64,000 nucleotides of DNA from an uncultured Flavobacteriales bacterium (GTDB lineage Bacteria; Bacteroidota; Bacteroidia; Flavobacteriales_D; Parvicellaceae). The stretch spans positions 1,736,001-1,800,000 of the forward strand of contig CALSRM010000003.1 in assembly GCA_943788755.1 (NCBI GenBank). Direction: 5' to 3'. This document shows, piece by piece, positions 3,796 to 47,094 of this stretch (its first letter is position 1; each line of letters opens with the position of its first letter). The position numbers and the translations under genes are program-made. The notes under the pieces were generated by a model. That model was not told where the DNA came from. It saw nothing but the letters and a program-made list of their open reading frames with translations, and made no database searches.

Positions 3796-4344
3796 CTATT
3801 TTTTCTTTGGATTGATCATCATAATCATTCTTTTACCCATTAGCTGAGGCATTTGCTCTACTACACCTAGATCATCAATTTCTTGGGCTAACTTTAATAA
3901 TAAAATTTCACCTCTATCTTTAAATACGATTGTTCTTCCTTTAAAGAAAACATATGCCTTTACTTTAGCTCCTTCTGAAAGGAAAGCTCTAGCATGTTTT
4001 AATTTAAAATCAAAATCATGCGCATCAGTATTAGGGCCATAACGGATTTCCTTAACAACAACTTTACTCTGATTCTTTTTCAGTTCCTTATCTTTTCGTT
4101 TTTGTTCGTAAAGAAACTTTTTGTAATCTATTATTTTACAAACAGGAGGAACTGCTTTAGGCGATATCTCAACCAAATCCAAATCTTGGGCAGTTGCTAA
4201 TTCAAGTGCTTCTGCAATCGGATAAACTGCAGATTCAATTCCATCTCCTACAACACGAACTTCTCTTGAAAGAATTTTTTCGTTTATTTTGTGAGCGTCC
4301 TCTTTAAAGACTCTTCTCCCTCTGTTATTTCTTTTAGGTTTAAT
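3796..4344 (-). CDS. infC: Translation initiation factor IF-3, ATT start
   Basis: The frame encodes a full IF3: N-domain ([18 protein letters not shown], then the LDLVEISP linker region) and C-domain ending [12 protein letters not shown]. The first ATG/GTG/TTG in frame is the TTG at 4182, which would delete the N-domain. The in-frame upstream stop is TAA at 4357-4359, and between it and the N-domain the only near-cognate initiator is ATT at 4342-4344, giving 182 residues ([11 protein letters not shown]...). IF3 discriminates against AUU, and infC of E. coli uses AUU for self-control. The gene is 34 bases downstream of thrS, in one operon. Confidence 0.92.
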
Positions 4345-12262: not shown

Positions 12263-14914
12263 ATGCAAAGGGGAGTAATATTTATTTTATTTTTTATAAC
12301 GGTTGTGGTTTTTCAAGCCCAAGACTATGGTTTCTTGCTCGAATCCCAAGAGTATAAGTTGGATGAATTTGATCAAAATGTTGGTTTAAATAATCCTTTT
12401 GTTAATACAATAAATCAAGCAGATAATGGGAGCTTGTTAGTTGGTACTAAAGAAGGTATAGGTGTGTTTGATGGGGAAACTTTCGAAATGTATTATACGG
12501 ATGATCATTTAGCTGAAAACTCGGTTTCTTCAAGTTTTAAGGATGATATCGGTAATATTTGGTACGGACATCAATCAGGAGGAGTAAGTATATATGATGG
12601 AGTTAGTTTTGATTTAGTTCATCCAGGAGGAGGTATTAATAGTGTAATAATCGATATTGATCAAGACGACAAAGGATTGATTTGGTTTGCAGCAAAAGAT
12701 TTTGGACTTTTTAATGTCAACGAAAAAGGTAAATGTGAATTTTTTAATAATCAATTTGAAGGTCAATATTTGCATTCATTAATGATTACCAAGGATGGGT
12801 CTTTTTTCGTAGGAACAGATGCGGGAGTTGATGTCTATAAGTACTATCCAGAGGAGGGAGTTCTCAGTAAAGTTCAGCATATTAGTGGTATTCCAAGAGA
12901 TCAAGTGGCTGGAATTATCGAAATTGAATTAGGAAAGATTGTTGTGTCGACTTTTACTTCTGGTTTGTATTTGATAGAGAAGGAGAATGATGTTTTTTTA
13001 ACTTCTAAAATTGAATTTTCAAATTTTGAAGACGACATATTAATCAAAGATGTTAAAGAGTTTGGAGATGCTATTTGGATTAGTACTCTGCGTTCAGGAT
13101 TACTAAAATGCAAATGGAATAAGACGGAGTTTTTGGTGGTGGAAAGCTATCATTCAAAAAGTGGATTACGAACAGATGCTGTTAACACAATGTTTATTGA
13201 TCGTGAAGGTACTTTGTGGATAGGAACTTTTGGAGAGGGACTTGCATCTAAAGGTGGTAATTTGTTTACTTTTTATTTTGCTAATCCTAAAGGGCTTTAC
13301 AAGGTGAAGAGTATTCTTGCAAACAAGAATGAAATTTGGGTTGCAAATACAGGTGTAATATCTGTTCGGAATAAACATACACTAAAAGAATTAAAACATT
13401 TTAATGAAGAAAATGGATTACCTGAGGATGTAATAACAGCGATGCATTTTACTGAAGACTCAACTCTTTTTATCGGTACGGAACATAAAGGAATATATCG
13501 GTACGTTTCCGAGACAAATTCGTTTAAAGAAATATTACTTTCGGGAGATGATTTGTCATTAACAATAACAAGTTTAACATCACGCGAAAATCAGCTTTGG
13601 ATAGGTACTTTAAATGGTGTTTTTAAGATGAACGTAAAAACAGAGGGTATTGTAAGTTATAATGTTTCTTCTGGCCTTTCTCATAACTCTGTGGGAGATA
13701 TTTTAATAACAAAAACGGGGGATGTTTTTATCGGTACCAGAAGTGCATTTTTAAACAAGTTTAATGATGGTATTTTCGAAAAAATCAGATTAACACCGGA
13801 ATATGATATTGTAACTGCAAATAAATTAATTGAATCGAGCGATGGTGCTATTTGGATTAGTACTTCGGATAATGGCGTATTTAGAGTTGGTGAAAACATT
13901 CTCAATATATCTGTTCTTGATGGTTTAGCATCGAATTATTGCTATGGGATCGAACAAGATGTAAAAGGCAGAATGTGGGTTATGCATAACGGAGGTCTTA
14001 GTAGGGTAGTGTTTGATGTTGATTCTAAAGGCTTTAGGATTGAACTTTATGGAGCCAAATATGGAATGAGCAAAAGGTTTTTAAGGAATTCAATATCTAA
14101 ATTTAATAATCAGCTATGGTTTGGTTCGGAAAATGGAGCAGTTCTTTACAATGCTAATGAAGATAAGCAAAATAAGGTTCCTCCAATAACAAGCTTTTCT
14201 GAAATTACGATAAATGAAATAGAGTATGATTCAAATGAGGATATAATTTTGCCATATGGCGAGTATGATATCTTTATTGACTTTAAAGGGGTTAGTCTAA
14301 AAAAGCCAGAAATGGTGACCTATCAATTTGTGTTGGAGGGGCACCAAAGTAAATGGTCAGAGAATTCTGTTATTAATGTAGCTAAATATCATAAGGTGTA
14401 TGATGGCGATTATACTTTTAAAGTCCGATCATATAATGCAGATGGGATAGTTGGAGACACTATAACAATTAAGGTTATTATTGCAAAACCCTTTTGGAAA
14501 GAGTGGTGGTTTATTATTGCATCAGGCGTGGCTTTAATTTTTATAATAGCTTTTATTGTAAAAATGAGAGAACGCAGTCATTTACGCTATCAAAAAGAAT
14601 TGGAACATCAATTAGCGTTAAGAACAAAAGAGGTTGTCCATCAAAAAGAAGAGATTGAGGAGATAAATAAAGACATAACGGATAGTATTAATTATGCTAA
14701 ACGAATTCAAACAGCAATTTTGCCGGAAGAAGATGAGTTTGATAAGATGTTTCCGAAAAACTTTGTGATTTATAAACCAAAGGATATTGTTAGCGGTGAT
14801 TTTTATTGGGCCAGAAAGTTTAATAATCTTCAATTAATAGTTTGTGCCGATTGCACAGGTCATGGTGTTCCTGGAGGGTTTTATGAGTATGATTGGAATG
14901 ATGCTATTGTATGA
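12263..14914 (+). CDS. Propeller/Y_Y_Y sensor with SpoIIE phosphatase, N-terminal part (frameshifted)
   Basis: 883 residues in this frame. Signal peptide (about 1-20), then two-component-regulator propeller repeats (GNIWYGHQSGG, GTLWIGTFGEGL, QLWIGTLNGVF and others), a Y_Y_Y-like domain around 650-740, one membrane span near 750-772, a coiled coil, and the start of a PP2C/SpoIIE domain (ADCTGHGVPGG). After GGA GGG TTT T the frame changes and runs into ten unrelated residues. The rest of the phosphatase continues in another frame at 14883. Probably a periplasmic sensor controlling a cytoplasmic phosphatase that acts on the SiaC-like protein upstream. Confidence 0.85.
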   Translation: MQRGVIFILFFITVVVFQAQDYGFLLESQEYKLDEFDQNVGLNNPFVNTINQADNGSLLVGTKEGIGVFDGETFEMYYTDDHLAENSVSSSFKDDIGNIWYGHQSGGVSIYDGVSFDLVHPGGGINSVIIDIDQDDKGLIWFAAKDFGLFNVNEKGKCEFFNNQFEGQYLHSLMITKDGSFFVGTDAGVDVYKYYPEEGVLSKVQHISGIPRDQVAGIIEIELGKIVVSTFTSGLYLIEKENDVFLTSKIEFSNFEDDILIKDVKEFGDAIWISTLRSGLLKCKWNKTEFLVVESYHSKSGLRTDAVNTMFIDREGTLWIGTFGEGLASKGGNLFTFYFANPKGLYKVKSILANKNEIWVANTGVISVRNKHTLKELKHFNEENGLPEDVITAMHFTEDSTLFIGTEHKGIYRYVSETNSFKEILLSGDDLSLTITSLTSRENQLWIGTLNGVFKMNVKTEGIVSYNVSSGLSHNSVGDILITKTGDVFIGTRSAFLNKFNDGIFEKIRLTPEYDIVTANKLIESSDGAIWISTSDNGVFRVGENILNISVLDGLASNYCYGIEQDVKGRMWVMHNGGLSRVVFDVDSKGFRIELYGAKYGMSKRFLRNSISKFNNQLWFGSENGAVLYNANEDKQNKVPPITSFSEITINEIEYDSNEDIILPYGEYDIFIDFKGVSLKKPEMVTYQFVLEGHQSKWSENSVINVAKYHKVYDGDYTFKVRSYNADGIVGDTITIKVIIAKPFWKEWWFIIASGVALIFIIAFIVKMRERSHLRYQKELEHQLALRTKEVVHQKEEIEEINKDITDSINYAKRIQTAILPEEDEFDKMFPKNFVIYKPKDIVSGDFYWARKFNNLQLIVCADCTGHGVPGGFYEYDWNDAIV

Positions 14915-15425
14915 ATCTTGCGTTTTGAAAAACATATTAGACCCTGGAGAGATATTAAAGGATATGGATAATAGCTTGAAGGAAATCCTTCGACAAAATG
15001 ATGATTTTGAATCTAACAAAGATGGTATGGATATATCCCTTTGTTTGGTTGATGTAGATTCAAATAAGATGTATACAGCTGGTGCAATGCGTCCAATCTA
15101 CGTTTACCGACAGGGTATGCAACATATTATAAAAGGGGATCGTTTTTCATTAGGAGGAACCATTGTAAAAAATAAGGTTTTTAATACGCGAGAATATGAT
15201 TTGATGAAAGATGATTTGGTCTATATGTTTAGTGATGGGTATGCAGATCAATTTGGAGGTCCTAACAGAAGGAAAATGAAAGTACTGAAATTAAACGAAC
15301 TCTTAGATCAAGTTTCTCAATTAGATATATCAAAACAAGGTAAAGAGATTGATTCCTTTTTTGAAAGTTGGAAAGGTGATACACCTCAAATGGATGATGT
15401 GCTATTAATTGGTTTTCAATATTAA
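14883..15425 (+). CDS. SpoIIE phosphatase, C-terminal part of the same gene
   Basis: From ATG 14883 the frame reads MSMIGMMLLYES, the normal continuation of SpoIIE phosphatases after GHGVPGAF, then 'SLCLVDVDSNKMYTAGAMRPIY', 'GGTIV' and the metal-site region 'MFSDGYADQFGG'. The terminal 'DDVLLIGFQY' is the usual end. Removing one T from the TTTT at 14879-14882 fuses it to the upstream ORF into one protein of about 1054 residues. I do not think this is an independent gene; whether it is expressed depends on that extra base being real. Confidence 0.8.
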   Translation: MSMIGMMLLYESCVLKNILDPGEILKDMDNSLKEILRQNDDFESNKDGMDISLCLVDVDSNKMYTAGAMRPIYVYRQGMQHIIKGDRFSLGGTIVKNKVFNTREYDLMKDDLVYMFSDGYADQFGGPNRRKMKVLKLNELLDQVSQLDISKQGKEIDSFFESWKGDTPQMDDVLLIGFQY

Positions 15426-42763: not shown

Positions 42764-42787
42764 TACGCAAATTAATAATTGAATAAA

Positions 42788-43504
42788 ATGAACATGTTTA
42801 AAGGAGTTGGAGTTGCATTAGTAACACCTTTTCGAAGTAATGGGCAAGTTGACTTTACCGGTCTTCAAACGCTTGTTGAACATCAAATAAACAATGGTAC
42901 GGATTACCTAGTTGTGCAAGGTACTACAGGGGAATCGGCAACTCTATCTTCAGATGAAAAGAAGGCTGTACTGGATTTCATAATTGAAATTAACACAAAA
43001 CGATTACCAATTGTTCTAGGAATAGGAGGTAATAATACCGGAGCAGTGGTAGAATCAATTAAATCAACCGATTTAAAAGATGTTGATGGGATCTTATCTG
43101 TTAGCCCTTATTATAATAAACCATCGCAAGAAGGAATATATCAACATTACAAAACAATTTCAGCGGCGACTTCTAAGCCAATTATACTTTATAATGTTCC
43201 GGGAAGGACAATGAGTAATGTGTTACCGAAAACTACTATTCGTATTGCTCAGGAGTGTAAAAACATTGTTGCAGTAAAAGAAGCTTCAGGGAATCTTGAG
43301 CAAGTAATGGAAATTATTAATAATAAACCAGAAGGGTTTGTTGTGCTATCTGGTGATGATGCATTGACATTGCCTCATATGGCAATTGGTGGTGATGGCG
43401 TTATTTCTGTAGTAGCAAATGCCTTTCCAAAAGATTTTCTACGCTGGTTCATGCAGCTATGGAAAATAATATGGATTTGGCTCGTGAAAAACATTATGAG
43501 TTAA
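42788..43504 (+). CDS. dapA: 4-hydroxy-tetrahydrodipicolinate synthase, N-terminal part (frameshifted)
   Basis: From ATG 42788 (or 42794). Class I aldolase: 'GTTGESATLSSDEK', 'SPYYNKPSQEGIYQHY' with the Tyr, 'YNVPGRTMSN', catalytic Lys in VAVKEASGN, 'SGDDALTLPHMAIGGDGVISV'. After AFPKDF the frame goes off into a false tail. The true sequence resumes in another frame. One additional T in the run at 43435-43438 would give DFSTLVHAAMENNMDLA and restore a protein of about 296 residues. Condenses pyruvate and aspartate semialdehyde for lysine and DAP. Confidence 0.9.
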   Translation: MNMFKGVGVALVTPFRSNGQVDFTGLQTLVEHQINNGTDYLVVQGTTGESATLSSDEKKAVLDFIIEINTKRLPIVLGIGGNNTGAVVESIKSTDLKDVDGILSVSPYYNKPSQEGIYQHYKTISAATSKPIILYNVPGRTMSNVLPKTTIRIAQECKNIVAVKEASGNLEQVMEIINNKPEGFVVLSGDDALTLPHMAIGGDGVISVVANAFPKDFLRWFMQLWKIIWIWLVKNIMS

Positions 43505-43677
43505 TAGAAGTAATACAACAATTATTTGCGGATGGTAATCCAGGAGGGGTAAAACATGTTCTTAAATTATTGAATATTTGTGACGACAACCTACGTTTAC
43601 CATTGGTTCCTGTAAGTAAAGACGTTGCAGACAAGTTATATGCGTTAACTGCTAAAATAGGAGAGAAGGTGGTTTAG
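43459..43677 (+). CDS. dapA: dapA, C-terminal part in shifted frame
   Basis: 72 residues starting MENNMDLAREKHYELIEVIQQ and containing 'ADGNPGGVKHVLKLL' and 'LRLPLVPVS', which are the normal C-terminal helices of DapA. It has no independent start signal and overlaps the preceding frame by 46 bases. It belongs to the same gene as 42788-43504. Confidence 0.85.
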   Translation: MENNMDLAREKHYELIEVIQQLFADGNPGGVKHVLKLLNICDDNLRLPLVPVSKDVADKLYALTAKIGEKVV

Positions 43678-43700
43678 CTAAATTTAAAGTTAATATTTTG

Positions 43701-43742
43701 AATAAGCTTCAATTTGTCTTCAAGTTGGAGCTTATTTCGTTT
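43701..43742 (+). terminator. Bidirectional terminator dapA / yigZ
   Basis: Stem aataagcttcaa/ttggagcttatt (one G-T pair) with a 12-base loop and T-rich end, in the gap between the convergent genes. Confidence 0.7.
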
Positions 43743-43757
43743 TGGGCAGTTTAGTTT

Positions 43758-44270
43758 TCATACACAATCCAATTGAAAGTCTTGTTCTACAATTTCCAAT
43801 TCAAAAGATTTAACCAATCCCATAATGGCGTTCATGCTTTCGTATTTAAATTTAATAGTAAGAGATTCAGTGATTTCTTGTTCAATTATTAGAGCATTGT
43901 TTAAGGCGTCCTTAGCAGCTTCTCTATATGCCGTTATTAAACCCCCAACGCCAAGGTTTACGCCTCCGTAATAACGAATAACAATAATAGAAACGTTCGT
44001 TATTTCAAAAGAGCGTAGTTGTCCGTAGATTGGTTTTCCAGCAGAGTTATTGGGTTCTCCATCGTCACTATATCTGTAAATTTTTCCTTCAGGACCAATA
44101 CTAAATCCATAGCAATGATGGCCAGCATCGCGATATTCTTTTTTAATGCTGGAAAGTTCTTCTTTGAATTGAATTTCCGAATTTATTGGAATTGCAAATG
44201 CGATAAACTTGCTTCCTTTCTCTTTGTAGATTCCTTCCGAAGAAGCTTTTATTGTTTTGAATGAATTCAT
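43758..44270 (-). CDS. yigZ: YigZ/IMPACT family protein, short C-terminus
   Basis: 170 residues. IMPACT domain: 'GIYKEKGSKFIAFA', 'DAGHHCYGFSIGP', 'SDDGEPNNSAGKPIYGQL', 'VIRYYGGVNLGVGGLITAYREAA'. The C-terminal DUF1949 domain stops after FQLDCV, about 30 residues earlier than usual. Family members bind RNA/ribosome-related partners, but the bacterial role is unclear. It overlaps the upstream EamA gene by 4 bases and is the last gene of ribD-EamA-yigZ. Confidence 0.85.
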   Translation of the reverse strand: MNSFKTIKASSEGIYKEKGSKFIAFAIPINSEIQFKEELSSIKKEYRDAGHHCYGFSIGPEGKIYRYSDDGEPNNSAGKPIYGQLRSFEITNVSIIVIRYYGGVNLGVGGLITAYREAAKDALNNALIIEQEITESLTIKFKYESMNAIMGLVKSFELEIVEQDFQLDCV

Positions 44271-46173: not shown

Positions 46174-46202
46174 TTATGCGAAAATACGATTTTGAGGGCA
46201 AT

Positions 46203-46230
46203 AAAAAAGCCTCTTTTTGGGAGGCTTTTA
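46203..46230 (-). terminator. Terminator after the dipeptidase gene
   Basis: Stem aaaagcctc/gaggctttt with a short T-rich loop and A/T flanks, about 50 bases past the TAG at 46282-46284. Confidence 0.75.
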
Positions 46231-46281
46231 ATATTTAAATAAGCTTTAAACTTATTCTGGGAGATGGTATTGATTTCCCTT

Positions 46282-47094
46282 CTATAATTTAATTGAGTCA
46301 TTTAAAGGCAAGCCTTCTATTATTTTGTATTTGAAATAAGCAGAGTCCCTAAAACACGCATTAAAATGCCACCATTATGTTTGAATGTTAAAAAAACTTC
46401 CAGCATGCATAGACCTTCTTAAAAGTTTTCGATTATCAATCTGCTGCTTCGTAAGTAAGCTATCTTCTAGCATTTGTTTTTCTTTTATGGGCCAAGCTAG
46501 TATTCCAAAATAATCAAAATCCGTTCCCATATCTAAAGCTTTTTCTGAAAGACCATTTGCCAAAGTAATATCCACTGCAGCACCAAAATTATGTAATGAC
46601 CCTTTTTTGGGATTCGATACAAATTTGGTTTTTTCATTGATAGGCATGTCTAATAGATCCCACATATATTGTTGAACGCTTCTTGGTCGAACACCATCGT
46701 AAATTAGTAATGTAAGAGTAGAATCTTTCTTTTTAAGATATTCTTGACAAAGCTTTAACCTATCTGCTATGTCTGGTTGTAAGTAGCAATTTGTTAAGCA
46801 ACCATACATGTTTTTTTTCATAAAATTGTCTGTTGTTGAGTACTTTAAGTCAACTAATATGGAGGGGTCGAGACGCTGTATATTAATCAATCCTTCGTTA
46901 ATAAGATACTCATCTAATAAACAAGAAGACTCTTTTATTATAGTTTTTTGAATTGGAGCAATTGAGTCTAATTTAATAGTATCCATGGAAATGTTTGGAG
47001 ATGGGACTGCATTTTCATCCATCAATTCCGAAGTGCATTGTAGTAAAATGTCAGAAAATAAAAAGATGAAGAGTATATAGCTTGATTTACCCAT
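46282..47094 (-). pseudogene. D-Ala-D-Ala dipeptidase (VanX/DdpX, M15D) with nonsense codon
   Basis: The open part is 239 residues: hydrophobic N-terminus, 'DLKYSTTDNFM', Arg137 in GVRPRSV, zinc ligands His168 and Asp175 in SLHNFGAAVD, and 'RRSMHAGSFFNIQT'. The next codon is TAA (46377-46375), then the same frame reads WWHFNACF... and stays open to TAG at 46284-46282. The family motif is EWWHF, so TAA stands exactly where the catalytic Glu codon (GAA/GAG) belongs. As given, the product lacks the Glu and third zinc His and should be dead. A G-to-T change or a base-call error would explain it. Confidence 0.88.

Follow-up and report, generated by a model that had tools for sequence, protein, structure and literature searches.

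In the genome of an uncultured Flavobacteriales bacterium, a gene for a VanX/DdpX-type dipeptidase carries an in-frame TAA exactly at the codon that encodes the catalytic glutamate of the EWWH motif in its relatives. Comparison of this locus with related genomes suggests that the stop is probably a real and very recent single-base nonsense mutation, one that disabled a dispensable gene for an M15D D-Ala-D-Ala dipeptidase-like lipoprotein. An earlier note on this DNA had left real loss, a base error and readthrough side by side; we can now rank them, with real loss as the likely explanation, a base error as a serious but lesser candidate, and readthrough or recoding as very improbable.

A stop codon at the catalytic glutamate

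The DNA analysed here, a stretch of 64,000 nucleotides (the window), comes from a 3.17 Mb genome in 5 contigs (G000). The features at the locus are as follows.

46282..47094, minus strand: M15D (VanX/DdpX-type) dipeptidase gene, probable lipoprotein, with one in-frame stop (translation, Pfam, genome scan, relatives)
46375..46377, minus strand: in-frame TAA at codon 240, the Glu of EWWH in relatives (translation and homologue alignment)
46282..46374, minus strand: 30 open codons past the TAA and the ancestral TAG, with the conserved W, W, H and N kept (translation, alignment)
46174..46281, strand unspecified: short spacer to ribD (comparison with congeners G002 and G003)

Translation of the minus-strand frame 47094..46282 gives a 270-codon gene whose product has a lipobox-like LLQC close to its N-terminus. 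Codons 1-239 end in SMHAGSFFNIQT and are followed by TAA (plus-strand 46375-46377), after which the frame continues as WWHFNACFRDSAYFKYKIIEGLPLNDSIKL for 30 codons before reaching TAG, bearing out both the placement of the stop and the open tail described in the earlier note. The lesion is one substitution outside a homopolymer, with no indel nearby.

The part of the gene before the stop matches Pfam Peptidase_M15 (PF01427) with an E-value of 5e-15 and 56.1 bits, above the family cut-off of 27, and a family-model scan of the whole genome does not break off at the TAA but extends to profile position 184, at 75.5 bits. That scan reports the window gene, with one internal TAA, as the sole PF01427 match in G000, and a second M15D gene to cover the loss was not found in this genome. 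The zinc ligands H168 and D175 (H...D) and the substrate-binding arginine R136, none of which varies among homologues, are all kept in the window gene, which shares its Peptidase_M15 match and its R-P and H...D motifs with the VanX/DdpX D-Ala-D-Ala dipeptidases (MEROPS M15D, PF01427, PDB 1r44). It differs from them in having a stop in place of the Glu codon and a lipoprotein-like N-terminus, and in standing alone between ribD and yajQ, with none of the van genes seen adjoining.

In VanX, the histidine of EWWH is a zinc ligand. When the protein of a congener was aligned to VanX (1r44), its EWWH coincided with the motif in the solved structure; Glu181 of VanX has been proposed as the residue that abstracts a proton (PMC5778951). 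This alignment and the Pfam match uphold the VanX/DdpX-type assignment, which the earlier note would have given up had a family alignment not placed EWWH at this site; in the alignment we ran, the motif is expected there. Because the VanX alignment and the glutamate column of the relatives agree, the position of the TAA is no chance reading.

The product of the window gene lacks the catalytic Glu of the ExxH motif (here EWWH) and also its His, the third zinc ligand, which is encoded 3' of the TAA. One base substitution would have turned the Glu codon into TAA, and the product, if translated, would stop just short of the segment in which Glu serves as general base and His as third zinc ligand. 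We infer that such a product would be catalytically dead, since both residues are removed, and probably unstable. That the stop falls on a catalytic codon needs no explanation, as 111 of the 270 codons of a congener's dipeptidase gene could each become a stop through one substitution.

Constraint and recency

A homologue search across 60 related genomes found matches in 23, including G000 itself, and all 22 others carry GAA or GAG, encoding the Glu of EWWH, at the site of the stop. This agrees with the proposed single-step origin from a Glu codon. The closest comparisons come from two congeners, G002 (CALSNM010000008.1) and G003 (CALSMU010000002.1), whose orthologues lie at the same ribD-yajQ position with 90% and 84% protein identity and have Glu at the site; they differ from the window gene in being without an internal stop and in having an extra small gene between the dipeptidase gene and ribD. 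The window gene thus has a disabling lesion without counterpart in its relatives. It resembles the ordinary bacterial pseudogenes that arise when a dispensable gene, otherwise intact, has recently acquired a single nonsense change, and differs from them only in the chance position of its stop at a catalytic codon.

In an alignment with 28 homologues, 45 columns are at least 90% conserved; the window gene departs from them at one, the stop, and that codon aside it is as clean as the intact genes of its congeners. Old decay of the entire gene is ruled out by this pattern, and the recency proposed in the earlier note stands in the form that the lesion is either very recent or an error, because the remaining conserved columns are all intact. 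The gene must therefore have been constrained until a very short time ago, if it is not constrained even now.

An open and conserved frame past the TAA is also what would be seen if the codon were read through or recoded and the full enzyme produced. We consider this very unlikely: TAA is the main terminator nearby, ending 14 of 23 genes compared, none of the 22 relatives has a stop at the site, and recency alone accounts for the open tail. The first two observations exclude, in practice, a reassignment of TAA.

Changes private to the window lineage are distributed unevenly along the gene. The last 48 codons (223-270) hold 6 nonsynonymous changes and 1 synonymous change, and codons 78-222 hold 3 nonsynonymous and 26 synonymous changes (Fisher p = 0.0003, an optimistic value since the segment boundaries were set after the list of changes had been seen). 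A scan of 24 neighbouring genes in the window lineage found only three overlapping intervals as extreme, all in the dipeptidase gene, and in the lineage of either congener equally extreme intervals occur elsewhere among the genes compared. The private 3' changes other than the stop sit at variable positions. Synonymous differences at the 3' end are few in all three genomes, including between G002 and G003, and local recombination at this end may distort the comparison. We read the cluster as weakly favouring relaxed constraint at the 3' end.

Uniform drift after loss would be expected to leave far more than 3 nonsynonymous changes in codons 78-222, so the cluster is not simply explained by the death of the whole gene. 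The contrast between nonsynonymous change at the 3' end and synonymous change upstream would fit a truncated protein retained for a non-catalytic role, with only its 3' end freed from constraint. The synonymous changes, however, will mostly have arisen before the stop, and so have no bearing on constraint after it; the cut takes away conserved residues and a zinc ligand, and the scarcity of 3' synonymous differences between the congeners, with possible recombination, may again mislead. We find this reading even harder to credit than readthrough. That the stop is real and its product still useful, either by readthrough yielding a short form and the full enzyme or as a lipoprotein kept for binding without catalysis, has a very slim chance overall.

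Base errors and other broken genes

The TAA could instead be a consensus base error, or the base of a minority strain, in a long-read metagenome assembly, with the gene of the organism intact. We take this explanation seriously without favouring it. The assembly is presumably long-read, judging from its 5 contigs in 3.17 Mb, and frameshifting indels are frequent in long-read consensus sequences (PMC9262707). We surveyed lesions by comparing the window with G003 and G002 and, beyond the window, a stretch of 184 kb. The gene dapA (window 42779-43677) has lost one base from a run of A near 43433 and is whole in the congeners; it is the only DHDPS gene of G000, a second not being found in the genome. 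A broken sole dapA is biologically hard to believe, and consensus errors therefore probably exist in this assembly, the dapA frameshift probably among them.

Other lesions were found as well. A 1061-aa two-component-propeller/SpoIIE sensor gene (window 12263-15425) has a one-base insertion near 14873-14880 that splits it within its conserved HGVPGAF motif; the gene is whole in G003. Just outside the window, single-base indels break genes for a fatty acid desaturase, an HMA-domain protein and a TonB-dependent receptor. In a UPF0029 (YigZ/IMPACT-like) gene (43680-44270, minus strand), a TGA at 43758 cuts off about 26 codons; G002 and G003 have this part open, with similar sequence. The split dapA and sensor genes, the indels outside the window and the apparent constraint on the rest of the dipeptidase gene up to the present all speak for a base error.

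Against it, the likely assembly errors are indels, which fall mostly on short homopolymers, and errors of this kind explain a substitution such as the dipeptidase lesion less well; but the UPF0029 stop in the window is a substitution too, and either may be a true base or an error. Relatives have also truly lost the dipeptidase gene, and the window copy is without any other lesion.

An apparent HMG-CoA reductase frameshift was rejected as a window lesion: the window copy is complete and the break lies in the G003 assembly (L026), so congener assemblies hold errors too. Many split genes were also seen on the contig of G002. What looked like stops at 3845 and 6418 traced back to reference frames that were spurious or too long, and do not mark clearly broken genes.

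A dispensable gene at a variable locus

PF01427 matches occur in 13 of 39 genomes of the same taxonomic family (8 of 15 among those of good quality). The congener G001 has no orthologue between yajQ and ribD, where the flanks match up to the start and stop codon of the gene; this genome carries only a distant M15D gene elsewhere, at 35% identity. Several hundred extra bases with a small gene separate the dipeptidase gene from ribD in G002 and G003 and are gone from the window, whose spacer seems to retain only the last bases of such a small gene, joined just past the TAG. The patchy distribution, the absence in G001 and the loss of the small gene mark the ribD-yajQ locus as a place of gene gain and loss. 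The interval is variable in other ways: the small genes of G002 and G003 differ, the window has a deletion, and an apparent remnant of the G003 small gene is present in G001 (stretch L134, 4378-4656). The orthologous loci from the two congeners, searched against Rfam for an RNA element, gave no match.

Together, the Glu in every relative including the two closest congeners, the dispensability of the gene, the loss of the adjoining small gene, a lesion unlike the small indels elsewhere in the assembly, and the 3' cluster, such as relaxed 3' constraint would give, favour real loss, and we infer that the TAA is the true base in the organism. Counted against it are the single-base errors in the assembly, of which the frameshifted dapA is an example; an independent sign of decay is absent, since only the stop damages conserved columns.

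The stop is an ordinary finding, and neither real loss nor error would surprise a specialist. If it is an error, it shows why a loss called from just one metagenome assembly must be backed by reads. If it is real, a dispensable cell-wall recycling gene would have been caught just after its inactivation, with another species of the genus without the gene.
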